A stretch of DNA of 64,000 nt, taken from the NCBI RefSeq assembly GCF_029502005.1, contig NZ_JAMQOT010000005.1:310001-374000 (forward strand), read 5' to 3'. Of the stretch, positions 23,297-56,111 are shown one piece after another. The number at the start of each line of letters is the position of its first letter. The stretch's first letter is position 1. Both the position numbers and the translations under genes were made by a program. Source of the stretch: Natrinema salsiterrestre (GTDB taxonomy: Archaea > Halobacteriota > Halobacteria > Halobacteriales > Natrialbaceae). Under the pieces are notes generated by a model. That model did no database searches, was not told the origin of the DNA, and saw nothing but the letters and a program-made list of their open reading frames with translations.

Positions 23297-24403
23297 TCAG
23301 TCGCCCCGGGTTCGCTCTTCCTCGGAGATCCCCCACGGCGTCTCGACCTCCGCCGGAGCCTCGTCCCTCGAGAGGGGCACGTTGTGGTACAACTGGTCGA
23401 GGTGCTCCATGGTGTACCCGACCGAGTAGCGTTCGACCGCCGCTCTGGTCTCGCGGTCGGTCGCGAGACACGTTTCGATGGCCTCGACCATCGAGTCGAG
23501 ATCGCCGTACGCGAACCGCTCGCCGTTGTCGGGCCCGATCGTTCGGTCGAAGGGCGGCGCGTCGGTGGCCGCGACGGGCGTCCCGCAGGCGTTCGCCTCG
23601 AGCGTCGAGAGGCCGAGCGTGTCGGCGGTCGACGCGGTGACGAACGTATCGATCGACGAGTAAAACGTCGGTAACTCCTCCCGAGGGAGGAAATCGCGGA
23701 GTTCGACGTTGTCGGGTGCCTTGCGTTCGAGGGAGTCGCGGTACGGTCCCTCGCCGACGACGACGAAGTCGTACGCCGGCAGCTCCTCGGCGGCTCGCAG
23801 GATCTCGCTGACGTTTTTCTCCATGCTGAGACGGCCGCTGTAGCCGATCACCGTCCGGTCAGGGTACCAGTCTTCCGCGGTCGGCCGGAAGAAGTCCATA
23901 TCGATTCCGACTGGGAGTTGGACGTGCTCGACGTCTCGTTCGATCCGTTCCGTCGACGCAGTCACCACGTCGAAGCTCCGGAGGAAGGCGTTCTCGACCG
24001 GCACGTAGCAATTCGAGAGCAGTCCCGCGACCGACTCGAGTTTGATGCTCTGGTGGAAGTACTCCTCGAGGGGCGTGTGGTGCGTATAGATCGTCGGCAG
24101 GTCGTGCTTCCAGGCGTAGTACCGACCCAGGATGCCGATCGGGGCGGGGCCGTGGCAGTGGACGACGTCGAGCTCGGGGAGGGTCGAGGCGCGTCTGGCG
24201 AGGGGAATCCGGTATCCGGCGTAGAACGGGTTCGGTAGGGATCTCACCGGATACTCGCGGTCACCGGGTTCGTAGTCACCGTCGGGATAAATGACGTACA
24301 CCTCGTGTCCCCTCCGTTCTAGCTCCTCGCGCCAGAGCTTGATCGTATACGTTACGCCGTCTATCTCGGGGAAATAACTGTCCGTAAAGAATCCGATCTT
24401 CAT
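23297..24403 (-). CDS. Glycosyltransferase, GT4 family
   Basis: 368 residues with a GT-B fold. The N-terminus MKIGFFTDSYFPEIDGVTYTIKLW contains the glycine/acceptor-side signature. The C-terminal domain has IGYSGRLSMEKNVSEIL, VVVGEGPYRDSLE and the GT4 donor-site motif STADTLGLSTLEANACGTPVAA with its conserved Glu. It should add a sugar from a nucleotide-sugar donor to a lipid or glycan. It starts directly after the stop of the upstream glycosyltransferase, so the two are cotranscribed. Confidence 0.87.
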   Translation of the reverse strand: MKIGFFTDSYFPEIDGVTYTIKLWREELERRGHEVYVIYPDGDYEPGDREYPVRSLPNPFYAGYRIPLARRASTLPELDVVHCHGPAPIGILGRYYAWKHDLPTIYTHHTPLEEYFHQSIKLESVAGLLSNCYVPVENAFLRSFDVVTASTERIERDVEHVQLPVGIDMDFFRPTAEDWYPDRTVIGYSGRLSMEKNVSEILRAAEELPAYDFVVVGEGPYRDSLERKAPDNVELRDFLPREELPTFYSSIDTFVTASTADTLGLSTLEANACGTPVAATDAPPFDRTIGPDNGERFAYGDLDSMVEAIETCLATDRETRAAVERYSVGYTMEHLDQLYHNVPLSRDEAPAEVETPWGISEEERTRGD

Positions 24404-25387
24404 TCAGACCACCTCCTCGTACAGCGACTGGTACCGATCCGCGACCGTCTCGAGCGAGAATTCCTCGCTCCGTCGTCTCGCGTTCGTTCCGAGCCGGCTC
24501 CGGAGCTCCGGATCCGTGAGTCGCTCCAGCGCGTCCTCGAACCCGCTCACGCCGGATCCGGCCACCTTGAGGCTGTCCTCGCCGTCGGCGAGCCACGAGA
24601 ACGTCTCGATGTCTCGGACGAGGACCGGCTTCCCGGCGGTCATCGCCTCGAGCAGCGCGATTCCCTCGTTTTCTTCGTGCGTCGGGAAACAGAAAATGTC
24701 TCCCGCCGCGTAGGCACCGCGGATGTCGTCGACGTAGCCCGTGAACGTACAGTTCTCCGGGGATTCCTCGATCAGCGCCGTCGTTTCCCGTCCCTTCAAC
24801 GAGAGATCGAGCGGCCCGAACCACGCGAAGTCCAGCTCCGGCAGCCGGCGAGCGAGCTCGACGAACGTCTCGAGGCCCTTGCGCTTGATCACGTGGCCGA
24901 CGAGGAAGACGGTCGGCGGGTCGAGGTCGTACCGCTCGCGGTATGCCGCCTCGAGCGACTCGAACCCCTCGAGTTTCTCGCGGTCGACGCCGTTCGAAAC
25001 GACTCTCGTCGGCGTGTCGGTATAGGTCTCGATGAGCCCCCGGTTGTACGCCGACGGACAGACGAGGGCGTCGGCCAGTCCGTACGCCCATCGGAGATAC
25101 GGTTTCAGCGGTTTGGCGAGCGCGTTGGTGAAGCGAAAGCTGTCGCCGAAGTCCTCAGCCGTCACGTGCGTGTTCGCGACGACGGGAATACCGCGGGACC
25201 GGGCACGCTTTGCGTACCAGACTGACCGAGGCCCCATGAGGTTGCAGTGGAGTACGTCGGCCTCGAGGCTCGGCTCGACCGTGTACGCCAGGTTCAGCCG
25301 ATCCAGCATCTTCCGCTGGTGGACGACGGACTCGCGGATGCCGCCGGTGACGTGGTCCTCGAATTCGAAGTAGTGGCTGATTTTCAT
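24404..25387 (-). CDS. Glycosyltransferase, GT4 family
   Basis: 327 residues. MKISHYFEFEDHVTGGIRESVVHQRKML opens the chain. PTVFLVGHVIKRKGLETFVELARRL begins the donor-binding half, followed by AAGDIFCFPTHEENEGIALLEAMTAGKPVLVRD, the GT4 ExxxxxxxE-type motif. It is separated from the next glycosyltransferase by no bases and from the alkaline-phosphatase-like gene by 87 nt. The acceptor is unknown. Confidence 0.87.
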   Translation of the reverse strand: MKISHYFEFEDHVTGGIRESVVHQRKMLDRLNLAYTVEPSLEADVLHCNLMGPRSVWYAKRARSRGIPVVANTHVTAEDFGDSFRFTNALAKPLKPYLRWAYGLADALVCPSAYNRGLIETYTDTPTRVVSNGVDREKLEGFESLEAAYRERYDLDPPTVFLVGHVIKRKGLETFVELARRLPELDFAWFGPLDLSLKGRETTALIEESPENCTFTGYVDDIRGAYAAGDIFCFPTHEENEGIALLEAMTAGKPVLVRDIETFSWLADGEDSLKVAGSGVSGFEDALERLTDPELRSRLGTNARRRSEEFSLETVADRYQSLYEEVV

Positions 25388-25474
25388 CCGGATCCCCCCT
25401 GTCCGTGGTGTCGTCGACGGTCGAGACGGCGAGCCGAGTCGACAGCGGCTGTTCGCGGGCGAGTCGGTCTCACG

Positions 25475-26332
25475 TTAGTGAACTTCGAGCCACGGGACCT
25501 CCATCAGCGGCGGAATGTGCGTCTCGATGTGGTGCTCCCAGACGCCCTCCTCGCCGAAGGCCTCCCCGTGATCGGCGGTCACGACGACGCGCCCGTCGAG
25601 TTCGTCGACCAGTTCGGCGACGGACTCGAGCGCGATCCGCAGGTTCTCTTCGTACAGTTCCATCGCCGCCTCTCGCGTCCCGTTCTTGACGAGGTCCGTC
25701 GGGTCGAGTTCGAGCCAGAGCCCCGCCTTCTGTGCGAGTTCGCTCCCCTCGAGCGTGTTCTCGACTTTCGGGCGGATCGTATCGCTGAGCGACGAGAGCG
25801 CGCCACCGTCGTCGTCGGCGTTTTCGGCCTCCTCCTGTTTGCGGATCCCCTTCTGGATCTGTTTGAGCTTCTGCCCCTTGCCGCGGGAGAGATAGGGCGC
25901 GTGGGGCTGCATGTAGTGGAGCACCGTCCGGTCGGCCTGCTCGACGGCGTCCGGGTGATCGCGGAACGCCTCCGCGAGGCTGTCCGGCGGCACCGTTCCG
26001 AGGTCGTCGTCCCAGCCGGATTTCCAGACGTCGAAGACGTCGCTGATGTGGTCGGACGCCGACCACTCGTAGTCGCAACTGGCCCCCCACTTGAGTTCGT
26101 TCAGCGGAATACCGAGATCGTTGATGAAGGGGTTCCCGGAGAAGTACGCGATATCGTGTTCCTCGGTAAAGGTCCGGTAGGCCCACTCCGGCGTCGACGA
26201 CCCCGTACTCCAGCGCTTTTCCAGCGTCCCGTCGAGATACTCGTCGTAGATCTCGCTGAACACGTCGTACCGACACGCATCCAGCACGAGACAGTAATCC
26301 CACTCCGACTCGAGGAAGTGCTGGTCGTCCAT
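25475..26332 (-). CDS. Alkaline-phosphatase-superfamily (sulfatase-like) protein
   Basis: 285 residues. The N-terminal strand WDYCLVLDACRYDVFSEIYDEY holds the first metal Asp. GSSTPEWAYRTF is the probable nucleophile region (Ser/Thr, no FGly Cys). RVVVTADHGEAFGEEGVWEHH gives the second metal site. There is no signal or membrane segment. It could transfer or remove phosphate or sulfate groups from a glycan or lipid precursor. It sits between the glycosyltransferases and the larger sulfatase-like gene in one transcription direction. Confidence 0.78.
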   Translation of the reverse strand: MDDQHFLESEWDYCLVLDACRYDVFSEIYDEYLDGTLEKRWSTGSSTPEWAYRTFTEEHDIAYFSGNPFINDLGIPLNELKWGASCDYEWSASDHISDVFDVWKSGWDDDLGTVPPDSLAEAFRDHPDAVEQADRTVLHYMQPHAPYLSRGKGQKLKQIQKGIRKQEEAENADDDGGALSSLSDTIRPKVENTLEGSELAQKAGLWLELDPTDLVKNGTREAAMELYEENLRIALESVAELVDELDGRVVVTADHGEAFGEEGVWEHHIETHIPPLMEVPWLEVH

Positions 26333-26459
26333 TAGTTGCGGCTAGCTTTCGATTCGACCACTGTATTCTTATTGGTTCCTGAAAGTCAGCGCGAGCGAAC
26401 GTATTTCGTCGGTAGACGCCGCGATCGGCCGTCGGAGCGCGGCCGATCGACGGGGCATG

Positions 26460-28136
26460 TCACTCGAGATACCCGAGTTCGCGCAGCCGATCTCGAGTCG
26501 CATCGTCGGCGTCGGCCACGGCGTCGATGTCGTCGGTGTCCGTCTCGCTCGGCTCCGTCCACGCGCCGCCGACGGCGTCCTCGAACCGGGCGAGCGCTCG
26601 TTCGGTCGCGGCCACGACGGGGTCGTCGGCCGGATCGACGGGCGAGCGCTCGCCCGGATCGGTATCCAGCCGGAATCCCTCGTCGGGAACGAGATCCGCG
26701 CGGACGTATTTTCCGTCGGTGCTTCGAGCCGCTCGCAGCCGCGAGTAGGCCCGATGATCCGCCGGTAGCGTGACGCCGGCCTCGCTCGCCGTCCGCTCGA
26801 GGTGATGCAGTTCGATCACCGGCTGGGCGTACTCCACGAACGCGTACTCGGCGTCGCCGTCTCCCTCGAGGACGGCTCGCTGCCCGGGATCCGGATCACG
26901 AACGCCGTCGAACGTCCGATACTCGCTCGAGAGCAGCGAGCGGGTCGGATCTCGAGGGACTGGGTCGTCGCTCTCGGCAGCGCCGACCGCGGCAGCCGGG
27001 TCGACGGCCAGCGCGTCGAGGGTCGTGTGATAGAGATCCAGCAGTTCGACGAGGTCGTCGCGCCGACCGATCTCGAGTTCGGGGTGTTTCACCAGCAGCG
27101 GGACGGTGATCAGTTCGTCGTAGAGGGCGAACTCGTGGCCGTAGAGCCCGTGTTCGCCGTGGAGTTCGCCGTGGTCGGCACAGACGACGACGGTCGTCTC
27201 CTCCCACCGGCCGGTCGCGCGCAGCCAGTCGAACAGGCGACCGACTTGTGCGTCCATGTGGGCGATCTCGGCGTCGTAGAGGCCCCGAATATCGTCCCAC
27301 TCGTCGCCGTCGACGTCCCGGACGCCGGCGTTGTACTCCTTCGAGTTCTGGCACACGTCGTCCGGGTCGACGCCGGGCGCGAACGCCTCGCGGTACTCCG
27401 CCGGCGGGTAGTACGGCAGGTGGGCGTCCATCAGGTTCACGAACGCGAACCAGCCCCGGTCGCTCTCGCTGTCCTCGATGAAGGACCGCGTCCGGTCGAT
27501 GACCGACGGCGTCTTCGTGTCCGCTCCCTCGCCGCTGGCCAGTCGCTCGTGGGCCATCGCCCCGAATCGGACTATCTTCGCCGCCATTTCCTGGAGGTAC
27601 TCGTTATCGTTGACGGTCTCCCACGCACGGGCCAGCGGTCCGGAGAGCACGTCTCGAGGAAGCACCTCGAAGAACGAATCGTGCTCGTCGAACCCGTCGG
27701 TGAGTCCGGTGTAGGGCGTGATCCAGGCGTTCGAGGAGTAACACGCCGTGTCGTAGCCGGCCCCCGACAGGACCGACGCGAGGGTCGTCGCCTCCTCGAG
27801 GTACGGGCTCTCCTGATCGGCCCCGTGCTGGCTCGGATAGAGACCGGTGAACAACGAGGCGTGAACCGGGAGCGTCCAGGGTGCGGGCGCGACCGCTGAC
27901 TCGAAGACGGTCGCCTCGTCGGCGAAGGCCGAGAGCTCGGGCGTCGTCTCCCGTTCGTACCCGTACGGCCCGAGGTGATCCGCGCGAACCGTATCCAGCA
28001 CGACGAAGAGAACGTTCGACGGGCGGGTCCCGTCGTTCCCCGAGCGGGGGGCTCCGGTCCCTCGAGCGGTCCGCAGCGAATACGCGGCGTCGCTGTCGCG
28101 AATGGACGGCACTGACGGGACGATCGGAGAGGACAT
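26460..28136 (-). CDS. Sulfatase-like alkaline-phosphatase-superfamily enzyme lacking the FGly Cys
   Basis: 558 residues from the ATG at 28136 (MSSPIVPSVP); an in-frame start 11 codons earlier is possible. Sulfatase fold: NVLFVVLDTVRADHLGPYGYERETTPEL (metal Asp), APWTLPVHASLFTGLYPSQHGAD (nucleophile region) and VVCADHGELHGEHGLYGHEFALYDELITVPLLVKHP. In true sulfatases the nucleophile region reads CxPxR; here it is T-L-P-V-H. Formylglycine chemistry is therefore unlikely, and a Thr-nucleophile phosphatase or phosphotransferase is more likely. It heads the probable four-gene operon ending at 23297. Confidence 0.82.
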   Translation of the reverse strand: MSSPIVPSVPSIRDSDAAYSLRTARGTGAPRSGNDGTRPSNVLFVVLDTVRADHLGPYGYERETTPELSAFADEATVFESAVAPAPWTLPVHASLFTGLYPSQHGADQESPYLEEATTLASVLSGAGYDTACYSSNAWITPYTGLTDGFDEHDSFFEVLPRDVLSGPLARAWETVNDNEYLQEMAAKIVRFGAMAHERLASGEGADTKTPSVIDRTRSFIEDSESDRGWFAFVNLMDAHLPYYPPAEYREAFAPGVDPDDVCQNSKEYNAGVRDVDGDEWDDIRGLYDAEIAHMDAQVGRLFDWLRATGRWEETTVVVCADHGELHGEHGLYGHEFALYDELITVPLLVKHPELEIGRRDDLVELLDLYHTTLDALAVDPAAAVGAAESDDPVPRDPTRSLLSSEYRTFDGVRDPDPGQRAVLEGDGDAEYAFVEYAQPVIELHHLERTASEAGVTLPADHRAYSRLRAARSTDGKYVRADLVPDEGFRLDTDPGERSPVDPADDPVVAATERALARFEDAVGGAWTEPSETDTDDIDAVADADDATRDRLRELGYLE

Positions 28137-28371
28137 GTGACGTACTGCCCTCACTCGGCGGTGTCTCAATTTGTTATGAAGCCGATACAGTACCGAAACG
28201 GCCCGGGAACTGTCGTAGTGGGGTATTGATCGGCGGTAACTGGTGTAACGGCAAGTGTGGCAGCCGTGACAGTCCCGACGGACCGACGGCGACGACGAGG
28301 GCGACGGGCAATCGAGTTCGCCCGTCGATATCGATCAGACGTTTCAAGTCAACTGACGATTCATACCATCC

Positions 28372-29394
28372 ATGGACGAGCGAAACCGCCGCGCGTTTCT
28401 CATCGGTGCCTTCGGGGCGATCGCAGTCCTCGCCGTCCTGTTCTTCGTCGTCGGCGCACGGCCGATCCTCGACTCGCTGCTTTCGGCCGAGCCGTCTCTC
28501 GTCGCGGTGACGGTCGCCCTCGCGCTCTGCTGGCTGGCCGCCTGGAGCCTGATGCTCAGAACCGTCCTCGGCACGCTCGGCGTCGAGATTCCCCTCGTCA
28601 AGTCGTTCTTCGTCTACGCCGGTGCCGTCTTCGCTAACAACGTCACGCCGTTCGGGCAAGCCGGGGGCGAGCCGATCGCCGCGTTGCTCATCTCGAAAGT
28701 CTCCGACTCGCGCTACGAAACCGGGCTCGTCGGGATCGCGAGCGTCGACCTCCTCAACGTGATCCCCTCGATCTCGCTCGTCTTCGTCGGCGTCGGCTAC
28801 TACGCGACCACTGCCGCCATCGGCGACCGCCTCGGGACGGCCGTCGGCTCGGCCGTCGTCCTGATCGGCGGAATCGTCCTTGCCATGGCGCTGGTCTGGC
28901 GCTACCGCGAGTCGATCATCGATCGGCTGCCCGCCATCATCGCGCCCCGTATCGGCCGACTCGGCCTCGAGCGGTTCGATCCCGAGACCCTCGAGGACGA
29001 TCTCACGGATCGGATGGGGCGGTTCTTCGAGAACATCGAGCGGATCGCGACGGACCGGTGGCGACTCGGGGCGATCATCGGCCTCTCGCTGTGCGGCTGG
29101 CTCTTTCAGACCGCGGCGCTGCTGGCCGCCTTCGCCGCGCTCGGGTACAGCGTCCCGGTGTACGTCCTCCTGTTCGCGATCCCGCTCGCGAACATCGCGG
29201 GTGCGGCCCCGCTCCCCGGCGGACTCGGCGGCATCGAGGCCGCGTTCGTCACGCTGCTGGTTCCGACGACGACGGGCATCGAGGCGTCCGCCGTCACCGC
29301 GGCGGTCCTGATCTTCCGGGGCGCGGTCTACTGGATGCCGATCCTCGTCGGCGGCGCGTCGGTCTCGGCGTTCGGGATTCGGACCCTCAAGTGA
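28372..29394 (+). CDS. UPF0104 / LPG-synthase-type transmembrane (flippase-like) protein
   Basis: 340 residues with about eight membrane helices. The family signature FFVYAGAVFANNVTPFGQAGGEPIAALLISKVSDSRYETGL is present, and later PLPGGLGGIEAAFVTLL. Relatives include AglD-type proteins and flippase-like proteins acting on isoprenoid-linked sugars. It is divergent from the glycosyltransferase/sulfatase operon (235 nt), which supports a role in moving or modifying a lipid-linked glycan (inference). Confidence 0.83.
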   Translation: MDERNRRAFLIGAFGAIAVLAVLFFVVGARPILDSLLSAEPSLVAVTVALALCWLAAWSLMLRTVLGTLGVEIPLVKSFFVYAGAVFANNVTPFGQAGGEPIAALLISKVSDSRYETGLVGIASVDLLNVIPSISLVFVGVGYYATTAAIGDRLGTAVGSAVVLIGGIVLAMALVWRYRESIIDRLPAIIAPRIGRLGLERFDPETLEDDLTDRMGRFFENIERIATDRWRLGAIIGLSLCGWLFQTAALLAAFAALGYSVPVYVLLFAIPLANIAGAAPLPGGLGGIEAAFVTLLVPTTTGIEASAVTAAVLIFRGAVYWMPILVGGASVSAFGIRTLK

Positions 29395-29462
29395 ATCGAG
29401 GTGGGGTCCGTCCCAGCAGTTAAGTCGCCGGGCACCGGAGGGGTATCGACCACCCCAACGCG

Positions 29463-29975
29463 ATGTACCGAGACGGCCACGCCGGATTCAACGCGCTCCT
29501 CTACGCGCCGTTCGTCCCGCTCGTGAGCGCCGGCCACTCCCTCGAGCTGGCCCTCTGGGGAGCGGTGCTCGCGCTCGCCACGGCGACGCTCCCGGACTTC
29601 GATCAGGGGCTCCCGCGGATCGACCACCGCGGCCCGACCCACACCGTCTGGTTCGCCCTCCTGATCGGGCTGGTAACCGGAGCGGGAACGGCGCTCGTCG
29701 CCCGCTCGAGTTTCGGGGCCGGCGGCGGATTCAGCTTCGGTTTCGGGTTCGTCGTGGGAACGTGTGGCATCCTCGCCCATCTCGCGGGAGACGTCGTGAC
29801 ACCGATGGGGATCAGCCCGCTGGCTCCCGTCTCGCGGGCCCACCTGACGCTCGGCTGGTTCAAATCGAAGAACGGACGGGTCAACAGAGCGTTTCTGATC
29901 GCCGGCTCCGTCGCGTTACTGGGGGCGTTACTGCTGGCGATCTACCGGCCGGTACTGATCGCGTCCGCGGGCTAA
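29463..29975 (+). CDS. YdjM-like (DUF457) membrane metal-dependent hydrolase
   Basis: 170 residues with several membrane helices. It starts MYRDGHAGFNALLYAPFVPLV, and the metal motifs are LPDFDQGLPRIDHRGPTHTVWF and AHLAGDVVTPMGISPLAPVS. It is close in layout to the gene at 3059-3550. It overlaps the convergent paralogue by 4 nt at the stop codons. Confidence 0.8.
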   Translation: MYRDGHAGFNALLYAPFVPLVSAGHSLELALWGAVLALATATLPDFDQGLPRIDHRGPTHTVWFALLIGLVTGAGTALVARSSFGAGGGFSFGFGFVVGTCGILAHLAGDVVTPMGISPLAPVSRAHLTLGWFKSKNGRVNRAFLIAGSVALLGALLLAIYRPVLIASAG

Positions 29976-30481
29976 TTCGACTGCCCCTGCGAGTCGTCGC
30001 CGTCTCGAGCCGACGACCGTCTGACTCCCGCCAGATCGTTCGTTCGCCACGCGAGGACCCCGAGCGAGAGCGACCAGAGCAGTATCGTTCCGATCGCGCC
30101 GTGGACGTCGAGACCGGGACTCCACGTCGTCTCGATCGGGTACAGCCACTGAATCCCCATCGGTGACAGCGAGTCGATCAGGAGGTGGGAACCGATCGCG
30201 AGCGCGGCAGCGAGCGCGGCGGCACGGGTCCGACGAATCGCGTACACGGCGGCGACGACCGCCAGCGCGAACACCGGCGAGTGGGTGATCCCGCGATGGA
30301 CGAACGGCCACCCCCAGGCCGCCGGAAAGAGGAAATCGGCGTCCGGAAGGAGGCCGAAGACGACGCCCAGCCACGTCCCCGTGCGCGGATCGACGGCCGT
30401 GAATCCGCGAACGAGTGCGAGTCCGACGACGGCGTGTGTCGCGAACGCCACCGTCAGGAAGAGCACGCGTCCCGGTTCCAT
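29972..30481 (-). CDS. YdjM-like (DUF457) membrane metal-dependent hydrolase
   Basis: 169 residues starting MEPGRVLFLTVAFATHAVVG. The motifs are GLLPDADFLFPAAWGWPFVHRGITHSPVFAL and GSHLLIDSLSPMGIQWLYPIE. It is more distant from the other two copies in this window. It ends with a short acidic-polar tail. Confidence 0.78.
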   Translation of the reverse strand: MEPGRVLFLTVAFATHAVVGLALVRGFTAVDPRTGTWLGVVFGLLPDADFLFPAAWGWPFVHRGITHSPVFALAVVAAVYAIRRTRAAALAAALAIGSHLLIDSLSPMGIQWLYPIETTWSPGLDVHGAIGTILLWSLSLGVLAWRTNDLAGVRRSSARDGDDSQGQSN

Positions 30482-30653
30482 ACTGCCGACTCTCGAACGG
30501 AACTGTCGTATAAATTGTGGGTCCCGACGCGTCGATCACCGATCCGCGTCCGGTCGCGGCCCGATCGCACCCGAGACTTACGGGGGCTGCAGTCGCAAGC
30601 CGACGACTTCTGTCGCCGAGCGAAGTCACTGTCGAGACGGACTACGATCGGCA

Positions 30654-31175
30654 ATGGACCCGCTGCAACGCGCGGACGTCCCCTCCTGGCTCGAGTCGCT
30701 GTTCGCCTCCGAGGTCGGATTCGCGATCCTGTTCGGTCTCTGCGTCCTCGAGGGAGCGATGCTGCTGCGGTTCATGCCGAGCGAACTCGTCGTGCCGGCC
30801 GCGCTGGCGCTGATCGGCTCGTCGATCGCCGAGGCCGTCGCGATCGTCGTCCTCGCGGTCGTCGGGACGACGATCGGGCAGCTCCTCCTGTTCGGTCTCG
30901 TCCGGCGCGCGGGCCGGGAGTACGTCATGCAGACGCGGTGGGTCCCGATCAGCGAGTCGCGACTCGAGCGCTTCGACGGCTGGTTCGACCGCTGGGGACC
31001 CGTCGCCGTGCCGGTGAGCAACACCATGCTGTTCGTCCGGGGACTGCTCACCGTGCCGGCGGGATTGTCGGAAATGGACCGGCGGTCGTTCCTCGTGTTG
31101 TCGGCGGCCGGGTCGCTGTCCTTCCAGTCGATCCTCGCCGCGCTCTACCTGTTCGGCGGCTATCTCCTCGTGTGA
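30654..31175 (+). CDS. DedA/VTT-family membrane protein
   Basis: 173 residues from the ATG at 30654 (MDPLQRADVPSWLESLFASE). Membrane helices include LALIGSSIAEAVAIVVLAVVGTTIGQLLLFGLVRRAGREYV and FDRWGPVAVPVSNTMLFVRGLLTVPAGLSEMDRRSF, which fit the DedA re-entrant-loop layout (Gly near the first loop, RG...PAG in the second). DedA proteins are linked to lipid-carrier recycling and membrane energetics. The location beside glycan genes fits a lipid-carrier role (inference). Confidence 0.75.
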   Translation: MDPLQRADVPSWLESLFASEVGFAILFGLCVLEGAMLLRFMPSELVVPAALALIGSSIAEAVAIVVLAVVGTTIGQLLLFGLVRRAGREYVMQTRWVPISESRLERFDGWFDRWGPVAVPVSNTMLFVRGLLTVPAGLSEMDRRSFLVLSAAGSLSFQSILAALYLFGGYLLV

Positions 31176-31176
31176 G

Positions 31177-32583
31177 TCAGTCACCGCCCCGCCGATACAC
31201 GGGCAGCCGGAACCCGACGCCCGCGTCCCGGAGCCGCCACCTGCACTCGAGGCCGACCCAGACCAATCCGGTCAGGAGCGCGACGCCGACGGCGACGAAC
31301 TCGGTGGCACCCATCCAGACGGGTGCCACGAAGAACAGGGCGTTGTAGATCCGGTGTGGCAGGAGCGTTTCGATGAGATTCTCGAGGAACCCCACGGGAT
31401 CGACGCCGAGGGAACCGCCGTCGTCGCCGTCGTCGCTCTCGGCAGCCGTGCGGGACTCGAGATCGAGCGCCTGCGCGCTCCGCCCGCCCTCGCTTTCGGC
31501 CCCGGTCTCGAGGCGCTCGGCCTCGTAGGGGAGCGTCGATTCGACCTGCCAGACGATCGCTCCCGACTCATTGACCTCGATGACGCGATTGCCGTGGGTG
31601 TCCGTGATGAGCGTGTTGCCGTTGGGGAGCCGGTCGGCGTCTCGCGGCCACTGCATCCGGTCGTCGGACCACTCCCAGCTGCGGGTCCACTCGCCGTCCT
31701 CGCGCTGGAACTCCTGGACGCGGCCGTTCTCGGAATCGGCGACGACGACGGCCGGACCGCCTCGGCTCTCGGGGATGTAATCGGGGTTGTGCTGTTCGTA
31801 CTGGGTATCGTAGTCGTCCTCCGAACCGAGGGTCCAGTCCTCGAGCAGTCCCTCTTCGCGATCGAGGAAGACCACCTGATCCTGATTCCGGAGGCTGGCC
31901 ATGATCGTTCCCGACATCTCGCCCTCCTCGATGTACTCGACGTCGTTGATGTGGGCCCAGTCCTCCGGGTACGGACCGCCCTCCTCGACGGGGAACTCGC
32001 TCTGGGCGTCCCAGAGCCACTCGACGACTTCCGTCTCGGTGTTCACGACGAACACCTGATCCGCGACGATATCGGCGACGACAACGTGGGTTTCGTTGAT
32101 GCGGTCCGCGTCGTGCCACTCGCCCGCGGTCTCCTTGTAGTCGTAACGCTCGTAGAGCACCTCGACCTCGCCGGTCTCGAGGTCGACCTGCTCGATGACG
32201 TTCCGCGCACACGGCGGCTCCGAACAGGTCGGGCCCTCGGTGTGGATCGTGTCCGTGGCGGTGTATTCGACGGTCAGCGGGTCGCCCGCGACGGGATCGG
32301 CGTCGAAGTACTTCGTCCGCGTGTTGTTGTAGTACAGCACCTCGCCGTCGGGAGCGTAGGCGGTTATCGTCCCGGCTCGCCCCGATTCGGTGACGACCGT
32401 GTGATTCTCCGTCGGCGGCGCGTCGGGAACGGCGGCTCTCGAGGCCGTCGAGATCTCGTCCGACGAGGCCGTGGCGACGACGGCCGCCGAGAGGACGAGA
32501 ACGACGACGAAGGCGACCCGAAGGCGGTTCCGCGAGAGGAGCGATCGAACTGGGTCGAGCGATGAACGTGGTCGGTCAGGCAT
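31177..32583 (-). CDS. Membrane-anchored arylsulfotransferase-like protein
   Basis: 468 residues. An N-terminal helix (VAFVVVLVLSAAVVATASS) and two C-terminal helices (about 410-450) flank a beta-propeller with EWHDADRINETHVVVAD, EDWAHINDVEYI, QYEQHNPDYI and QWPRDADRLPNGNTLITDTHGN. This repeated HxD/HxN pattern is typical of ASST-like propellers with an active-site His. The bulk probably faces outside. The enzyme would move sulfate between phenolic or other acceptors; the donor in archaea is not known. The stop lies 1 nt from the DedA stop (convergent). Confidence 0.78.
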   Translation of the reverse strand: MPDRPRSSLDPVRSLLSRNRLRVAFVVVLVLSAAVVATASSDEISTASRAAVPDAPPTENHTVVTESGRAGTITAYAPDGEVLYYNNTRTKYFDADPVAGDPLTVEYTATDTIHTEGPTCSEPPCARNVIEQVDLETGEVEVLYERYDYKETAGEWHDADRINETHVVVADIVADQVFVVNTETEVVEWLWDAQSEFPVEEGGPYPEDWAHINDVEYIEEGEMSGTIMASLRNQDQVVFLDREEGLLEDWTLGSEDDYDTQYEQHNPDYIPESRGGPAVVVADSENGRVQEFQREDGEWTRSWEWSDDRMQWPRDADRLPNGNTLITDTHGNRVIEVNESGAIVWQVESTLPYEAERLETGAESEGGRSAQALDLESRTAAESDDGDDGGSLGVDPVGFLENLIETLLPHRIYNALFFVAPVWMGATEFVAVGVALLTGLVWVGLECRWRLRDAGVGFRLPVYRRGGD

Positions 32584-39048: not shown

Positions 39049-40104
39049 TCACTCGAGCGCGAGCGGCGCGTGATCGACCCGGTAGCCGTCGTCGATCTCG
39101 TCGATACCGCTCACTTCGCGCAGTCGGAGGCCGCGTTCCATCTTCGTCACGACCGGCGTCTCGTAGTAGTCGGCCTCGTACTCGAATCCCTTGCCCTCGT
39201 CGCGGCGGCGCTCGACGAACTCCTCGTGGCGCTCGAGGCGGGCCCGTCCGATCGACCGCGACAGCGCCGGGACGTCGTCGACGTGCTCGTCGAAGACCTC
39301 GAGGAAGGCCGCCTCGAGTTCCGAGCCGACCGAGTTCCGGCCGGTACACATCGCCGCGAGCGTCGTCGTGCCGGTCCCCCAGAAGGGGTCGAGCACGGTG
39401 TCGCCGTACGCCGAGTACATGCAGATCAACCGGTAGGGTATCTCGAGGGGGTAGGCCGCCGACCGCTCCCGCAGGTCGTCGTCCGCGGGCTCGTCGATCG
39501 CCTGTAGCTCGCCCCTGACCTCGGTCCAGACGTCGGTAAACCAGCGGTTGCGCTCCTCCCAGAAATAGGCCGCCTCGTACCGCCGGTCGGCTTTCGGCTC
39601 GAACTCGCGGCTCTCGGCCCCCTTTCGAAACACCAGGATGTACTCGTGTTCCAGCGTGACGTAGGCGTTGGGCGGAATCATCCCGCTTCCCATGAACTTG
39701 GCCGCGCTGTTGGCCGGCTTGCGCCAGAGCACGTCCGGCAGGGGCTCGAATCCGCGGTCCTCGAAGGCCTCGAGCACGCGGGCGTGGTTGGGGTAGACCC
39801 GAAAGCTCCCGTCGACCGATCGAGTCGCGTCGCCCACGTTGACACAGGCGATCCCGCCGTCGACCAGCACCCGCTCGAGTTCGTCCCAGACGCGCCCGAG
39901 CTGGGCGTGCATCGCCTCGAACGCCTCGTACCCGTCGCCGGCCGCCAGCGCGTCGTCGATCGCGGGATCGAGCTCCGTGAAGAGGTCGTCCCACATCTCG
40001 ATCATCGGATACGGCGGGGACGTGACGACGAGTTCGACGGACTCGTCGGCGACCGCCGAGAGATCGCGAGAATCGCCGACGAACACGCGGTGGGTCGTCT
40101 CCAT
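39049..40104 (-). CDS. Orphan DNA methyltransferase, N4-cytosine type (possible Zim)
   Basis: 351 residues from the ATG at 40104 (METTHRVFVGDSRDL); an ATG three codons earlier is possible. The catalytic motif TSPPYP at about residue 30 and SAM motif LDPFWGTGTTTLAA late in the chain give the beta-class order of N4-cytosine enzymes. No nuclease gene is adjacent, so it is an orphan methyltransferase. A widely conserved haloarchaeal orphan of this type is the CTAG methylase Zim; identity with it is an inference from the motif type and length. Confidence 0.8.
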   Translation of the reverse strand: METTHRVFVGDSRDLSAVADESVELVVTSPPYPMIEMWDDLFTELDPAIDDALAAGDGYEAFEAMHAQLGRVWDELERVLVDGGIACVNVGDATRSVDGSFRVYPNHARVLEAFEDRGFEPLPDVLWRKPANSAAKFMGSGMIPPNAYVTLEHEYILVFRKGAESREFEPKADRRYEAAYFWEERNRWFTDVWTEVRGELQAIDEPADDDLRERSAAYPLEIPYRLICMYSAYGDTVLDPFWGTGTTTLAAMCTGRNSVGSELEAAFLEVFDEHVDDVPALSRSIGRARLERHEEFVERRRDEGKGFEYEADYYETPVVTKMERGLRLREVSGIDEIDDGYRVDHAPLALE

Positions 40105-46167: not shown

Positions 46168-47346
46168 TCAATCCGACTGCGACTCTAGAATGGCGTCCAA
46201 CTGCGCCACGAGGTGCTGTTTCCGTTCGGCTGACAGCCCAGTGATGAATTCGGTCTCCGACAGCTCCGACAGGGTCGCGCCGGTCTCGAGCAGTCGCAGT
46301 CCCTCCGCGACGGCCGCCCGATTCCCCACCTTCGCGACGCGGTTGCGCGAGGTCCAGAGGTCGACGTTCTGCCGCCGAGCGTCCCGCCGGCTGACGCTCG
46401 GCAGGACGTATCCCTCGCAGCCCTCGATCGGCGCGAGCACCGCCTCCGGATCGCCGGTCACGTCCTCTCGGAGCTTCACCACCTGTCCTTCCGCGACGAA
46501 CGTCTGCCAGTCCCCGTCGCTGGCGACGGTCGGCGGCTCCGACAGCGCACTCCCGTCGGCGACGTCGACGCTCGCGAGATCGGCGCGACGCCACGCCGAG
46601 ACCACCGGGACGTCGCTGTCCCGGAGCACGCGCCGTTCGAACGCCGGCGTGCGGTACGCGACCGCATCCTCGTCGACCGACACCGTCCCGACCCGACGGG
46701 CCGTCTCGAGCAGGTCGCGGCGCTGCTCGGCCGCCGACGGGCGGACGAGCGGCGGAAACAACACGAACTGAACCCGCCCGCCGGGGCGAACGTGCTGGCA
46801 GGCCCGATAGAGCCACGCTTCCGTGTGTTCGGGATACCACGGCGGATCGAAGAACGCGACCGAAAACGTCGACTCGAGGTCCAATGGCTCGTGGACGTCG
46901 CCCCGAACGAATCGGAGCGACTCCAGGTCGGTCGCGAACCGCTTTTCGACCCGGCCGCTCCGATCGACGAGCGTCACGGGAACCCCCCGCCGAGCGAGGC
47001 GGACGGCGACAGTCGGCGCGCCGAGACAGAGGATCGGTTCGCCACCCTCTCGGAGGCTGTCGGCGACGGCGGTCGTCGCCTCCGCGGTGAAATACCACTC
47101 GTAGTCGAGGGGGTGTAGTTCGGGCGTGTGGACGGCGTCCGTTTCGCCGTCCGACTCGAGGGTGCCGGTCGGAAGCGTGTCGGCGACGCCCCGTTCCCGT
47201 AACCGGTCGTAGACGATGGTCGGGAACGCGCCGCGGGCGTTCCGAATCACGTCCGCAACCGTCGCGTCGGGAGCCGCTGTAAGCGCGGTCACTCGGTCGT
47301 CGAGGCGACGCTGGTAGGTCGTCTGGGAAGCGGTCTGCTCAGACAT
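46168..47346 (-). CDS. Predicted SAM-dependent methyltransferase with DPPW motif
   Basis: 392 residues. The N-terminal helical part may be a winged helix. The middle has a Rossmann-type motif (ILCLGAPTVAVRLARRGVPVTLVDRS) and FVRGDVHEP, followed by AFFDPPWYPEHTEAWLYRACQHVRPGGRVQFVLFP. DPPW is the catalytic motif of amino-methyltransferases such as adenine-N6 or polyamine-type enzymes. The C-terminal half (about 240-390) is not recognised. The substrate could be nucleic acid or a small amine. It is alone and co-oriented with its neighbours. Confidence 0.65.
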   Translation of the reverse strand: MSEQTASQTTYQRRLDDRVTALTAAPDATVADVIRNARGAFPTIVYDRLRERGVADTLPTGTLESDGETDAVHTPELHPLDYEWYFTAEATTAVADSLREGGEPILCLGAPTVAVRLARRGVPVTLVDRSGRVEKRFATDLESLRFVRGDVHEPLDLESTFSVAFFDPPWYPEHTEAWLYRACQHVRPGGRVQFVLFPPLVRPSAAEQRRDLLETARRVGTVSVDEDAVAYRTPAFERRVLRDSDVPVVSAWRRADLASVDVADGSALSEPPTVASDGDWQTFVAEGQVVKLREDVTGDPEAVLAPIEGCEGYVLPSVSRRDARRQNVDLWTSRNRVAKVGNRAAVAEGLRLLETGATLSELSETEFITGLSAERKQHLVAQLDAILESQSD

Positions 47347-47593
47347 CGGTCGCGTGCTGTCCGGGAGAGCTCGGTCGGCGGTACTGATTCGATTCGTCTC
47401 GATGGTCGGCAGGACAACGAGGGTCGCTCTGCACCGGCCGTGTCATACAGGTACGTATCAACTGAGGCGAATTTAAAGGTTTATCCGAGTGACGTGTAGT
47501 GACAGCGGACCGCTTCGGAGTGGCGCGACGAGCCGATCACGCGATCCGCGTGCCGTCGTCGGTGACCGCGACCACACAATCGTCACAGAGTAA

Positions 47594-48454
47594 TCACTCG
47601 AGAGCGATTCCCGACCGGTATTCGGGAACGCCTGAGACGTCGACGTCCGAGACCCGGAAGAGTGCCCCCGCACCGTCGCCTTCGGTCTCCCGATCGCCGT
47701 TGTCGAGGGCGGTCGTCAAGTAGAGATCGCTGTACTCCGGGCCGCCGAACGTGACGGAGGAGACCTTTCGCGCCGGGAGCTCGATCTCGTCGAGTTGCTC
47801 CCCGTCCGGAGAGTATCGGACGACGCGCCCGCCGTTCCACCGCGCGGACCAGATGCAGCCCTCCTCGTCGACCGTCATGCCGTCGGGGACGCCGTCGTCG
47901 GCAGGCGTCTCGACGACCGTCCGCTCGTTCGACAGCTCGCCGGTCGCCCGATCGTACTCGTACGCGGAGATCCGGCGTGCCTCCGACTCGGTGAAGTAGA
48001 ACGTCTCGCCGGCGAACCCCATCCCGTTGGGGATGTCGACGTCCTCGATCGCGACCGTCGAGGTGCCGTCCCGCTCGAGGCGATAGAGATCGCCGAGCGT
48101 CTCCTCCCCGGGCATCGTCCCGCAGAAGACCCGTCCGTTGGGACCGGCGATCACGTCGTTGAATCGCGTGTCGGCGTCGATCGAAGCGACGGGCTCGGCG
48201 TCGTCGCCGGGATCCCACCGATTGATGGCCCCGTGGGTGAACAGGAGCAACGCGCCGTCGGCTTCGATCGCGTACCCGCCGAGCGGAGCCCCGTCAGTTT
48301 CGTACGCGATCTCGTGGTCGTCGGTCCCGGGATCGTACCGATAGAGCCGGCCGGCCGGAATATCGACCCAGTACAATTGCTGGTCGTTGGGGTGCCACAG
48401 CGGCCCCTCACCAGTATGCGCGTGGATATCAGCGACGCGTTCGACACGAACCAT
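47594..48454 (-). CDS. SMP-30/gluconolactonase family protein
   Basis: 286 residues with a six-bladed propeller. The metal-site residues are Glu in HTGEGPLWHP near the N-terminus, Asn in RFNDVIAGPNGRVFCGTM, Asn in DIPNGMGFAGETFYFTES and Asp in GVPDGMTVDEEGCIWSARW. Members open sugar lactones to aldonic acids. With galactonate dehydratase 0.8 kb away it could supply galactonate or arabinonate-type acids. Confidence 0.85.
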   Translation of the reverse strand: MVRVERVADIHAHTGEGPLWHPNDQQLYWVDIPAGRLYRYDPGTDDHEIAYETDGAPLGGYAIEADGALLLFTHGAINRWDPGDDAEPVASIDADTRFNDVIAGPNGRVFCGTMPGEETLGDLYRLERDGTSTVAIEDVDIPNGMGFAGETFYFTESEARRISAYEYDRATGELSNERTVVETPADDGVPDGMTVDEEGCIWSARWNGGRVVRYSPDGEQLDEIELPARKVSSVTFGGPEYSDLYLTTALDNGDRETEGDGAGALFRVSDVDVSGVPEYRSGIALE

Positions 48455-48620
48455 GATACCCGATTTGAGGGATATCCCTTAAATCATCTAGTTTGTGGTA
48501 CTATATTCCCAGATGACAGTGTAGAGTAGCGATATATCGCGTTTTATATCGGATTCTGAATACGTAGTTCTAATTAATAGATGCCAATTCCATACGGTAT
48601 ATGGTATATTGAAAGTTCTT

Positions 48621-48702
48621 AATTTCTAGGGTCCATCCCGGTGGTGCTGCCATGGTCAAGAGGGATACAGTCCGAGCCCACCCATCCCGGAACCCAGAAA
48701 TT
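48621..48702 (+). ncRNA. Structured 5S rRNA-like element (fragment or novel RNA)
   Basis: AATTTCTaGGGT (48621-48632) pairs with ACCCAGAAATT (48692-48702), closing an 82-nt element. Inside, CCCATCCCGGAACCCAGAAAT resembles the conserved 5S rRNA loop CCCATCCCGAACACGGAAGAT, and GCTGCCATGGT resembles the 5' start GCGGCCATAG. A direct repeat CCATCCCGG occurs at 48633-48641 and 48682-48690. It is either a degenerate 5S fragment or an unrelated structured RNA. Strand is tentative. Confidence 0.35.
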
Positions 48703-49060
48703 AGAACATGAAGACGGGACGATTCTTCGATGATTTCTCCACTGAAGTCAGACGCTAATCACCGAGAGGAAGAGCGCTACGGCTACTTTAATCTAGTTCG
48801 ACAATAGGTTATTATACATACACAATTTATGGCCATATACATATATGCTAGCTTGTATTTAATTTTTTAATATGTGTATCGATCAGTTAGGAGCCCTATT
48901 CGAGCTCTGCGGAGACTCGCTCATGCATCACCGCTCGAAGTTCGTATCCGTTTCAATTACAATACAAAATTTTTATATTTCGGCGAATGATTCTACATCG
49001 GACTATTACCCGGATTGGGTGCGCTCGGGCGACACGAAATCGAAGAGTGAACGTTCCAGC

Positions 49061-49176
49061 AATCAGGGACCCGATCCGTCAAAAGGACTCACGTTGGAGA
49101 ATATTTATAATAGCCGGGGGTAATCCCTTAGCCACGCATGAGACCAGTCACACGGCTGTGTGAGCAGTCCCTGATT
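49061..49176. promoter_or_regulatory. dgoD promoter with flanking inverted repeats
   Basis: A TATA-like box ATATTTATAATAG is at about 49100-49112. It is flanked by a perfect 10-bp inverted pair AATCAGGGAC (49061-49070) and GTCCCTGATT (49167-49176). A small palindrome CACACGGCTGTGTG lies at 49149-49162. The distance to the ATG (49261) implies a leader of about 120 nt, unusual here. These may be operators for a sugar-acid regulator. Confidence 0.45.
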
Positions 49177-49260
49177 TCGTCCGGGGGATCGGCTCCCGAC
49201 GACGGACTGACTATCCGAGACAGTGCCACCGCGATATCCGCCACGAGCACCAACTGAGAC

Positions 49261-50415
49261 ATGTCCGAGATCGTCGATTACGACCTGTACGAAGTACCGC
49301 CCCGCTGGTTGTTCCTCCGCATCGAAACGAGCGACGGGATAGTCGGCTGGGGCGAACCGGTCGTCGAAGGGCGAGCGGCGACGGTTCGAACGGCAGTCGA
49401 GGAGCTCATGGACAACTATCTGGTTCGGAACGATCCCGCGAGAATCGAGGACCACTGGCAAACGATGTACCGCGGCGGGTTCTATCGCGGCGGGCCGATC
49501 CTCATGAGCGCCATCGCCGGAATCGATCAGGCGCTCTGGGACATCAAAGGGAAGCGCTTCGACGCACCCGTCTACGAGCTCCTCGGCGGCCGTGCTCGCG
49601 ATCGGATCCGCGTCTACCAGTGGATCGGCGGTGACCGACCGTCGGAGGTCGGTGACGCGGCCGCCGACAAAGTCGCGAACGGATTCACCGCGCTGAAAAT
49701 GAACGCCACCTCGGAGCTTCGCCGGGTGGACAATCCGGCAGCCATCGAGAACGCCGTCGATCGGCTCAGAGAGGTCCGGGAACGCGTCGGACCCGAAATC
49801 GACATCGGCGTCGACTTTCACGGCCGCGTCTCCAAACCGATGGCCAAGCGACTGGCCAAAGCGCTCGAGCCGTACGATCCGATGTTCATCGAAGAACCGG
49901 TCCTGTCGGACCACAACGACGAACTCCACACCCTCGCCCAGCACACGACGATCCCGATCGCGACGGGCGAGCGACTGTACTCTCGATGGGATTTCAAGGA
50001 GATCTTCGAGAGCGGTGCGGTGGACGTTATCCAGCCGGACCTCTCCCACGCGGGCGGGATCACCGAAGTCAAGAAGATCGCCGCGATGGCGGAGGCGTAC
50101 GACGTCGCACTCGCCCCGCACTGTCCGCTCGGACCGATCGCGCTGGCCTCATGCGTTCACGTCGACACGATCTCACCGAACGCCCTGATTCAGGAACAGA
50201 GCCTGAACATCCACTACAACGAATCGAGCGACATTCTGGAATACCTCGAGAATCGAGACGTCTTCCGGTACGACGACGGCTACATCGAGGTCCCCACCGA
50301 GCCCGGGTTGGGGATCAGTATCGACGAGGACTACGTCGAGCAGCAGGCCGAAAAGACCGTCGACTGGCACAATCCGGTCTGGCGAAACGAAGACGGGAGC
50401 GTTGCAGAGTGGTAA
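49261..50415 (+). CDS. dgoD: D-galactonate dehydratase
   Basis: 384 residues of the enolase / mandelate racemase superfamily. The sequence follows bacterial DgoD closely: YRGGFYRGGPILMSAIAGIDQ, VDFHGRVSKPMAKRL, FIEEPVLSDHN, IATGERLYSRWDFK, QPDLSHAGGITE and LAPHCPLGPIALASC. By register with the E. coli enzyme the Mg ligands are Asp185, Glu211 and Glu237, and the catalytic bases His187 and His287. It converts D-galactonate to 2-keto-3-deoxy-galactonate. The aldolase gene 143 nt away (convergent) fits the next steps after a kinase encoded elsewhere. Confidence 0.92.
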   Translation: MSEIVDYDLYEVPPRWLFLRIETSDGIVGWGEPVVEGRAATVRTAVEELMDNYLVRNDPARIEDHWQTMYRGGFYRGGPILMSAIAGIDQALWDIKGKRFDAPVYELLGGRARDRIRVYQWIGGDRPSEVGDAAADKVANGFTALKMNATSELRRVDNPAAIENAVDRLREVRERVGPEIDIGVDFHGRVSKPMAKRLAKALEPYDPMFIEEPVLSDHNDELHTLAQHTTIPIATGERLYSRWDFKEIFESGAVDVIQPDLSHAGGITEVKKIAAMAEAYDVALAPHCPLGPIALASCVHVDTISPNALIQEQSLNIHYNESSDILEYLENRDVFRYDDGYIEVPTEPGLGISIDEDYVEQQAEKTVDWHNPVWRNEDGSVAEW

Positions 50416-50558
50416 CGTACGGCGAAGACCCATCGCCCCGTCGAAAACGAAACCGTGACGAACGGAACGCCGTTCCGTCTCGCCAGCCGGACCGCGATCG
50501 GTACCCGGTCCGAGCGCGGGATCGCGGGACAAGAAGACGGGGTCAGTTCTCCGGCCCG

Positions 50559-51212
50559 TTACCGGGACCGAGCCGATTCGACGGCGTCGACGAACGAGGC
50601 GGCAGTCTCCCGCACCCGGGCCATGTCGTCGGCCTCGATGGCGTCGTAGTCGACGATCGCGCTGCCGGCACCGACGGCGACGGCACCACCGTCGAAGAAG
50701 TCGCCGACGTTGTCGGGCGAGATGCCGCCGGTCGGCATGATATCGACGTCCCCGAGCGGGCCCTGTATCGCGCCGATGTGGTCGGGACCGACCGTCGTCG
50801 CCGGGAACATCTTGAGCATATCTGCGCCGGCCTCCATGCCCCTGACGGCCTCCGTCGGCGTCATCACGCCCGGAACCGAAACGACGCCCCGCCGGTTACA
50901 GGTGCGGATCATCTCGGGGTTGCAGTCCGGCGCGAGGACGAACTCCGCGCCGGCGTCGATAACCGACTGCGCCGTCGGGGCATCGAGCACCGTACCGGCA
51001 CCGACGACGGCATCGGTACCCGTCAGTTCCCGATCCACCGCGGCGATCTTCTCGCTCGCTCGTTTGCCGTCGGCAGTTACCTCGATCGCGGTGACGCCCG
51101 CCTCGTGAATCGCCCGAGCGACCGACGCGATCTGCGCTTCGTCTACGCCGCGAAGGACTGCCACGACGCCACTGTCGATGATTCGGTCCCGAACCTCGGT
51201 TTCATTTGCCAT
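50559..51212 (-). CDS. KDPG/KDPGal aldolase
   Basis: 217 residues from the ATG at 51212 (MANETEVRDRIIDSGVVAVLRG); the open frame upstream is not family-like. A TIM barrel of the KDPG aldolase family with Glu44 (AIEVT), GAGTVLDAPTAQSVIDAGAEFVLAPDCNPE, Schiff-base Lys134 in DMLKMFPATT and the phosphate loop MPTGGISPDNVG. It should split 2-keto-3-deoxy-6-phospho-gluconate or -galactonate to pyruvate and glyceraldehyde 3-phosphate. Which epimer is preferred cannot be read. Confidence 0.9.
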   Translation of the reverse strand: MANETEVRDRIIDSGVVAVLRGVDEAQIASVARAIHEAGVTAIEVTADGKRASEKIAAVDRELTGTDAVVGAGTVLDAPTAQSVIDAGAEFVLAPDCNPEMIRTCNRRGVVSVPGVMTPTEAVRGMEAGADMLKMFPATTVGPDHIGAIQGPLGDVDIMPTGGISPDNVGDFFDGGAVAVGAGSAIVDYDAIEADDMARVRETAASFVDAVESARSR

Positions 51213-51524
51213 ACCCTCGTTTAGCGGAGCGGTCTCTTTAACGTAATGACTTCCGCGATCGACGTATCCAGTGGGTACTCGATCCGCTGGCCGCTCTCCG
51301 TCCGGCACCCTGATCGTTGATAGGTGACGGGCAGTTCACGGCGGCTTATCAGCGGCGGTTCAGCGATGCGAGCAGGGTGGCAAAGACGCCACATGACTGC
51401 GATTACGTTTCGTAATGAGAACATTCGACCGGCGAGGAGACGGTTTTCTCGAACGACCGACCGAATGACGGCGTTACACGGCTCGATCGTTCGCCGATCA
51501 GAAACACAGTGCTTCTGGATTCAC
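51213..51524. other. 312-nt intergenic region
   Basis: Upstream of the aldolase, TTAAAGAGACC-like sequence on the minus strand (51227-51242, + strand ggtctctttaacgtaat) may be its TATA region. No gene is recognised in the remainder. Confidence 0.35.
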
Positions 51525-52370: not shown

Positions 52371-52846
52371 TACCCGTTCTCCGTTCTCTCTCTCCCGACA
52401 GACTGCAGGCCGTTCGACGGTTCGTCCAGTACGGTCGATGCGATCCGGGACGGCGGTGCGGTATCATTTACATACATATGGCTGTAATATCGAGCGTGAC
52501 GCTACTCGAGGTTGCGGTTCGTTCGGCCGTCTCGCATCGTTCATCCAGAAGACGTTCTATGTTCGGCTTATGACGGAGACATCGCCGGATTTCGGCGGCC
52601 GTTCGACGTCGGTCGGGTGCACATGTTCGACTAGTAAGGGGAGCGGTAACCGATTATAAATTCGCCCCCCTATATCGGGGTTTTAACTACTGATTCGATT
52701 CCCGATCGCCGTTGAGTTCGTCTCCGCCGTCGCCGACTCTATCGGTTCGACTGCATTCGTTGCCGAGATTGGAAGGTCACGGCCCGACCGATTTAGAATC
52801 ATAAAATCTAGATAAGCTATTTACATGACGGTTTGGTACTACGGGT
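52371..52846. other. 476-nt divergent intergenic region
   Basis: It holds a strong TATA-like GATTATAAATT (52652-52662) and, right after it, CCCC-TATATC-GGGG followed by TTTT (52667-52684), a terminator-like hairpin. No gene follows within expected distance. Further AT-rich blocks (52790-52830) probably serve the MaoC gene. Confidence 0.45.
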
Positions 52847-53308: not shown

Positions 53309-53392
53309 CCCGCGACGTTCGGCGGTTCGTTCGAAGCGAGCGGTCTCCCGTTCAGAAGCGGGAAAGGAGAGCCGAAGACCGCCGGATACTCC

Positions 53393-53964: not shown

Positions 53965-53966
53965 TG

Positions 53967-55144: not shown

Positions 55145-55148
55145 CGTT

Positions 55149-56087: not shown

Positions 56088-56111
56088 ATCGGATGGTTCG
56101 TCGTATCGTTC

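Follow-up and report, generated by a model that had tools for sequence, protein, structure and literature searches.

Gene organization and family affinities of the cluster

The window analysed here, a 64,000-nucleotide stretch of DNA from the haloarchaeon Natrinema salsiterrestre (contig NZ_JAMQOT010000005.1, positions 310,001 to 374,000), carries between positions 23297 and 32583 a cluster of nine genes that is probably dedicated to the biosynthesis of archaeol glycolipids. An initial annotation of this DNA had described four minus-strand genes and a divergent UPF0104 gene, together with two YdjM-like genes, a DedA gene and an arylsulfotransferase gene, and gene calling and translation recovered all nine at the same coordinates. 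The minus-strand genes encode two GT4 glycosyltransferases, GT_A (23297..24403) and GT_B (24404..25387), the stop codon of GT_B directly abutting the ATG of GT_A; AP_s (25475..26332), a small soluble protein of the alkaline phosphatase (AP) superfamily; and Sulf (26460 to about 28112), a sulfatase-fold protein (PF00884, 5.4e-45) with a Thr at the formylglycine (FGly) position. The TTG start of Sulf at 28169 was judged too long, since most orthologs align from residue 24-51 of that version, and the start was placed at about 28112. As read from the sequence, an intergenic region of 259 bp (28113..28371) separates Sulf from the divergent plus-strand gene Flip (28372..29394), coding for a UPF0104 flippase-like membrane protein. 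Beyond it are found the YdjM-like membrane proteins YdjM1 (29463..29975, plus strand; PF04307, 3.1e-14) and YdjM2 (29972..30481, minus strand; PF04307, 5.2e-20), the VTT-domain membrane protein DedA (30654..31175, plus strand; PF09335, 2.6e-12), and the arylsulfotransferase-like ASST (31177..32583, minus strand), which has two membrane segments. The genes scanned from 12 to 46 kb of the window included no oligosaccharyltransferase (AglB) or sugar-nucleotide gene, in agreement with the initial view that this is not an agl N-glycosylation layout.

Both glycosyltransferases carry Glycos_transf_1 and Glyco_transf_4 domains above the Pfam cut-offs (PF00534/PF13439 in GT_A). The best NCBIfam models for GT_A were monoglucosyl-diacylglycerol (DAG) synthase (2.8e-26) and N-acetylglucosaminyl-phosphatidylglycerol synthase (2.3e-23), and those for GT_B were the IagA/BgsA lipid-anchor glycosyltransferase (3.2e-81) and processive DAG glucosyltransferase (2.2e-57). 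Since all these matches fall below the equivalog cut-offs, that of GT_B to the IagA/BgsA model NF053513 reaching 272.9 bits against 460, the two proteins are best regarded as relatives, not members, of the bacterial mono- and diglycosyl-lipid synthase families. Flip scored above the cut-offs of PF03706 (145.2 bits, 3.9e-42) and TIGR00374 (113.5 bits) and belongs to UPF0104; its match to the glucosaminyl-phosphatidylglycerol (GlcN-PG) flippase model (1.2e-15) was below cut-off.

AP_s (285 aa) has no hydrophobic or transmembrane segment, Sulf likewise lacks a membrane segment, and conserved metal ligands, a nucleophile residue and fold matches place both in the AP superfamily. In AP_s, which matched PF00884 weakly, the alignment of homologs revealed D18, S45, T47, H139, H144, D254, H255, H267 and H268 to be invariant or nearly so. 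Its structural model (predicted local distance difference test, pLDDT, 68) aligned best with EptA/MCR (Z 12.2 over 188-193 residues), then with sulfatases (Z ~11) and LtaP/LtaS (Z ~10.8), and the Sulf model (pLDDT 75) fitted sulfatases at Z ~30. AP_s shares the catalytic fold of EptA/MCR and LtaP but not their architecture of an N-terminal membrane domain plus an extracellular catalytic domain. FGly-dependent sulfatases are defined by a Cys or Ser, convertible to FGly, within a C/S-x-P/A-x-R motif; the corresponding stretch of Sulf, T80-L-P82-V-H84, places Thr at the nucleophile position (46 of 47 homologs, with Ser in one) and His, present in all of them, where Arg is expected, and AP_s has a conserved Ser/Thr at the FGly position. 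The label "FGly-less" applied by the initial annotation was therefore borne out, and these residues rule out a standard FGly sulfatase for either protein. The predicted structures leave the choice between sulfate and phosphate chemistry undecided.

Some irregularities among AP_s homologs were set aside. The apparent disruption of the gene in Natrialba asiatica (L125:10001-10974) and Natronococcus jeotgali (L127:10001-11147) coincided with a duplicated stretch containing an ambiguous base and was attributed to assembly artefact, and where AP_s seemed fused to a long N-terminal region, the extra part was a spurious open frame lying upstream in the GC-rich DNA.

Conservation of the cluster and its distribution relative to lipid profiles

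Among 117 genomes of the order, orthologs of AP_s (E<1e-98) were present in 34 and those of GT_A (E<1e-120) in 26, and homologs of GT_B (E<=1e-60) in 96. Strong orthologs of GT_A and AP_s occurred together in 24 genomes, GT_A alone in two and AP_s alone in 10, counts that are uncorrected for phylogeny. A scan of species genomes resulted in 66 named loci, and gene maps of these and of further loci revealed a core of AP_s-GT_B-GT_A, usually with a divergent Flip, in Natrinema, Haloterrigena, Natrialba, Natronorubrum, Halovivax, Halorubrum, Halalkalicoccus, Halovenus and other genera. AP_s and GT_B lay within 3 kb of each other in 68 fetched loci, Sulf and Flip were together at this distance or as neighbours in 41, and DedA was at most 3 kb from Sulf in 35. 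The co-location of AP_s with GT_B and of Sulf with Flip across many genera indicates that the grouping is not due to chance. Moreover, when neighbouring genes were clustered, the nine families of the cluster and Usp were the ten largest, any other family being present in at most 13 loci. The co-occurrence in related genomes on which the initial annotation had staked its proposal was thus observed, the core being conserved over haloarchaeal families.

The same annotation had taken the whole gene set as a unit, which holds for the core; the complete set of nine joins two sub-modules and was seen chiefly in Natrialbales and a small number of neighbours, with YdjM1 (present in 24 loci) and YdjM2 as its least conserved parts. 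The second sub-module, composed of Sulf, Flip, DedA and ASST, recurs jointly in other arrangements. For example, ASST, DedA and Sulf are rearranged beside AP_s in loci L050, L051 and L088, the sub-module is also found in Halanaeroarchaeum (L060), and Sulf and Flip are neighbours in loci devoid of AP_s (L152-L154, L157, L162). In Haladaptatus, an operon (L155:5009-11236, L156) encodes ASST, a PMT_2-like (GT-C-like) protein, Sulf, Flip, DedA and YdjM2, the last two adjoining as in the window, and AP_s, GT_A and GT_B are absent. Most of the remaining haloarchaea carry a second, more distant adjacent glycosyltransferase pair (~45-52% identity for GT_B and ~40% for GT_A) beside other genes.

In the GT_B tree, the AP_s-linked copies grouped together and the nanohaloarchaeal copy stood apart. 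The mixing of host families inside this group suggests that the AP_s-glycosyltransferase cassette may have passed between lineages. A DUF2070 membrane protein (PF09843), possibly a further component of the glycolipid pathway, is encoded beside GT_A in Halorubrum and Halopenitus (L084, L085, L144). Similarly, the 0.9-Mb nanohaloarchaeal genome M3_22 (L124:10001-20145) carries AP_s, GT_A, GT_B, a DUF2070-like gene next to GT_A and a UPF0104 gene within ~10 kb; this organism may have acquired the genes from haloarchaea and may remodel host-derived lipids with them.

The distribution of the cluster could be compared with published lipid profiles. Natrialba magadii, which is devoid of glycolipids (PMC3403918), gave no match to AP_s (1e-10), GT_B (1e-15), GT_A (1e-60), Flip (1e-50), Sulf (1e-80) or ASST (1e-10). 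Natrialba asiatica, which contains S2-DGD, a disulfated mannosyl-glucosyl archaeol (PMC3403918), carries AP_s, GT_B, GT_A, Flip and Sulf (L125), with an ASST homolog on another contig, and the core is also present in Nab. taiwanensis and Nab. aegyptia; no close copy of these genes was found in the Natrialbaceae isolate AArc-T1-2. Halorubrum harbors AP_s, GT_B, GT_A and Flip, and Sulf and ASST are missing; since its strains present a mono-sulfated lipid resembling sulfated diglycosyl diether (S-DGD) (PMC5890160), the ASST-like and sulfatase-like genes are not required there. AP_s and Sulf are both present in Nab. asiatica and in the genus Haloterrigena, for which disulfated diglycosyl diether was reported (PMC10704169, PMC8530250). 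Beyond these groups, AP_s and a homolog of GT_B are also encoded in Halanaeroarchaeum sulfurireducens and in Candidatus Methanohalarchaeum thermophilum (L130), a methanogen that is not a haloarchaeon; in the latter, AP_s is 49% identical and the GT_B homolog full-length. Both produce diglycosyl and sulfur-containing headgroups, whereas the alkaliphilic methanogens compared with M. thermophilum have glycerol dialkyl glycerol tetraethers with phospho-headgroups only (PMC6423904). These links between cluster and lipids are correlations across a few species.

Proposed pathway and competing explanations

Judging from homology and co-occurrence, a sequence of enzymatic steps can be proposed. GT_A would transfer the first hexose onto archaeol at the inner leaflet, generating monoglycosyl archaeol, and GT_B would add the second, yielding diglycosyl archaeol, which the literature knows as mannosyl-glucosyl archaeol. 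AP_s, together with Sulf where present, would then place sulfate on the sugars, presumably at the cytoplasmic face since neither has a membrane segment, giving mono- or disulfated lipids, and Flip would translocate the glycolipid product to the outer leaflet. DedA, a possible lipid transporter, YdjM and ASST would be accessory. Taken as a whole, this sequence of glycosylation, sulfation and flipping has about an even chance of being correct. The lipid-linked glycan assembly line with a flippase foreseen by the initial annotation is well supported in this scheme, its product being most likely bulk membrane diglycosyl archaeol rather than an unspecified surface glycan.

The sulfation step is favoured by a precedent and by a search result. 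Agl30 and Agl31 of Halobacterium salinarum, AP-superfamily proteins of which Agl31 is soluble, were demonstrated in 2025, by deletion and by expression in Haloferax volcanii, to sulfate N-glycan sugars (PMC11980604). N. gari and Halorubrum produce S-DGD and phosphatidylglycerol sulfate (PMC10704169, PMC5890160), and a search that gave matches in control genomes returned no PF00685 or PF13469 sulfotransferase for the genome under study, N. gari or two Halorubrum genomes. Sulfotransferases were therefore judged a better fit than sulfatases, an assignment for AP_s and Sulf to which we give slightly less than an even chance. A more detailed version is tentative and unlikely to hold in every part: that both are haloarchaeal glycolipid sulfotransferases built on a sulfatase/alkaline phosphatase fold with a Ser/Thr nucleophile, mono-sulfated mannosyl-glucosyl archaeol being the product of AP_s alone and the disulfated form that of AP_s with Sulf, and that the core of this kit serves lipid remodelling in one nanohaloarchaeon or more.

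Several observations weigh against the proposed pathway. AP_s had no glycosyltransferase pair nearby in 10 of the 66 named loci, and Halobellus and Halorientalis carry the second-type GT_B elsewhere. A weak, pattern-based search found no AP_s locus for Haloferax, a genus that makes S-DGD. Alkaliphiles often lack glycolipids, and the soda-lake genera Natrononativus and Natronosalvus (two genomes) carry a distant GT_B homolog. The model of AP_s sits as near to phosphoethanolamine transferases as to sulfatases, and sulfotransferase families other than PF00685 and PF13469 could also be involved. Finally, N. gari is a counterexample, harboring AP_s and Sulf with mostly triglycosyl diether and no disulfated lipid reported (PMC10704169).

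Phosphate chemistry is the main rival to the sulfate reading, and a rather unlikely one. AP_s, together with Sulf, would act on phosphate, AP_s either dephosphorylating archaetidic acid or cleaving a phospholipid, thereby providing archaeol for GT_A, or transferring a phospho-headgroup to the glycolipid as LtaP and EptA do. The alignment of AP_s with EptA/MCR ahead of all other folds, with LtaP/LtaS close behind, its Ser/Thr nucleophile candidates and complete set of metal ligands, and the fact that free archaeol needs some source are all consistent with this explanation; nevertheless, sulfatase folds lie within ~1 Z unit of EptA/MCR, and AP_s is absent from many genomes holding only the second-type glycosyltransferase pair. 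The nanohaloarchaeal locus, with AP_s, both glycosyltransferases and UPF0104, also counts in its favour, given that cultivated nanohaloarchaea are reported to lack the capacity to synthesize most of their own lipids (PMC10266531). Against it stands the experimental demonstration of AP-superfamily sulfotransferases in haloarchaea (PMC11980604).

That the product of the cluster is not bulk diglycosyl archaeol but some other glycoconjugate, for instance a dolichol-linked glycan or glycosyl phosphatidylglycerol (Gly-PG), is improbable. GT_A and Flip also match models of the GpgS and GpgF type from GlcN-PG synthesis (PMC12713373), Gly-PG is abundant in N. gari (PMC10704169), and N-glycosylation pathways include UPF0104 proteins (PMC5898192); the Haladaptatus operon, in which Sulf, Flip, DedA, YdjM and ASST accompany a PMT_2-like protein without GT_A and GT_B, points in the same direction. 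However, IagA/BgsA is by far the best model for GT_B, Nab. asiatica holds the core with no Gly-PG reported (PMC10704169), no oligosaccharyltransferase lies among the genes scanned nearby, and the absence of the genes matches that of glycolipids in Nab. magadii.

Sulfation of the glycolipid by ASST outside the cell after flipping, with the AP-superfamily proteins merely trimming phosphate or sulfate, is very unlikely: the protein scores above the PF05935 cut-off (1.2e-9; 38.1 against 24.2 bits), has three invariant His (H157, H211, H265), and its two hydrophobic segments, located around residues 18 and 415, could put the main domain outside, but the Pfam match covers a partial stretch only, and we know of no aryl-sulfate donor in haloarchaea. 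Set beside the catalytic His/Arg residues of the E. coli enzyme, the protein showed several invariant Arg in addition to these His, and its profile match to a solved sulfotransferase reached only E 0.008. Moreover, no ASST homolog was found at 1e-10 in the genomes of Halorubrum cibi and H. aquaticum, and Halorubrum strains make S-DGD (PMC5890160), so ASST is dispensable for it there. In a correction to the initial annotation, ASST is therefore an improbable choice for the enzyme on which sulfation depends, and the AP-superfamily proteins are better candidates. A second arylsulfotransferase-like gene, 80% identical to that of the window, is present in the same genome (contig C7:12173-13576).

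AP_s is also an unlikely glycocardiolipin synthase: a cardiolipin synthase of promiscuous activity has been described from archaea (PMC8141893), and glycocardiolipin is richest in Haloferax and Haloarcula (PMC10704169), neither of which yielded an AP_s locus in the pattern-based search.

In the surroundings of the cluster, positions 39049-40104 of the window encode a DNA methyltransferase (PF01555), which a Type II methyltransferase model matches very strongly. GC content is ~0.57-0.64 from 47000 to 64000, against 0.65 in the first 47 kb, and this lower-GC part contains a LonB-like gene as well as genes of catabolism, namely those for phenylacetate-type oxygenase subunits and for mandelate racemase-like and SMP-30 proteins.

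Relation to known systems and biological meaning

The cluster resembles bacterial glycolipid-anchor synthesis (IagA/BgsA with LtaP/LtaS) in combining GT4 mono- and diglycosyl-lipid enzymes with an AP-superfamily enzyme, but its lipids would be archaeol-based, GT_B scores under the cut-off, and AP_s is soluble, without the membrane domain of LtaP/LtaS. The Pseudomonas GpgSDF pathway for GlcN-PG also clusters a GT4 enzyme with a UPF0104 flippase for a glycosylated membrane lipid (PMC12713373); that pathway includes a deacetylase and glycosylates phosphatidylglycerol, whereas the present cluster has two glycosyltransferases and AP-superfamily proteins, which distinguishes the two, and its scores lie far under the equivalog cut-offs. 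By analogy, the AP-superfamily proteins would stand where the third components sit in these two systems. Compared by description, Agl30 and Agl31 are likewise sulfatase-looking haloarchaeal proteins encoded among glycosyltransferase genes, but they act on an N-glycan and belong to an aglB cluster (PMC11980604). The agl N-glycosylation clusters share glycosyltransferases and UPF0104 proteins with the locus and differ in the AglB and sugar-nucleotide genes, which are not among the genes scanned here.

The chemistry of these glycolipids is already known, and their sulfated forms are a standard taxonomic marker of haloarchaea. A keyword search of the open-access literature found no paper assigning these genes and none naming genes for lipid glycosylation or sulfation in haloarchaea, and glycolipids are treated only briefly in the consulted passages of a review on archaeal lipid biosynthesis (PMC9385802). 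Judged from that literature, the gene assignment appears to be new.

The cluster offers a concrete candidate for each glycolipid step, together with a natural comparison of presence and absence among species. As Agl30 and Agl31 already suggest, many archaeal "sulfatase" annotations would have to be reconsidered if sulfate were transferred by AP_s or Sulf. The cluster looks like the long-missing machinery for the addition of sugar, and probably of sulfate, to haloarchaeal membrane lipids.

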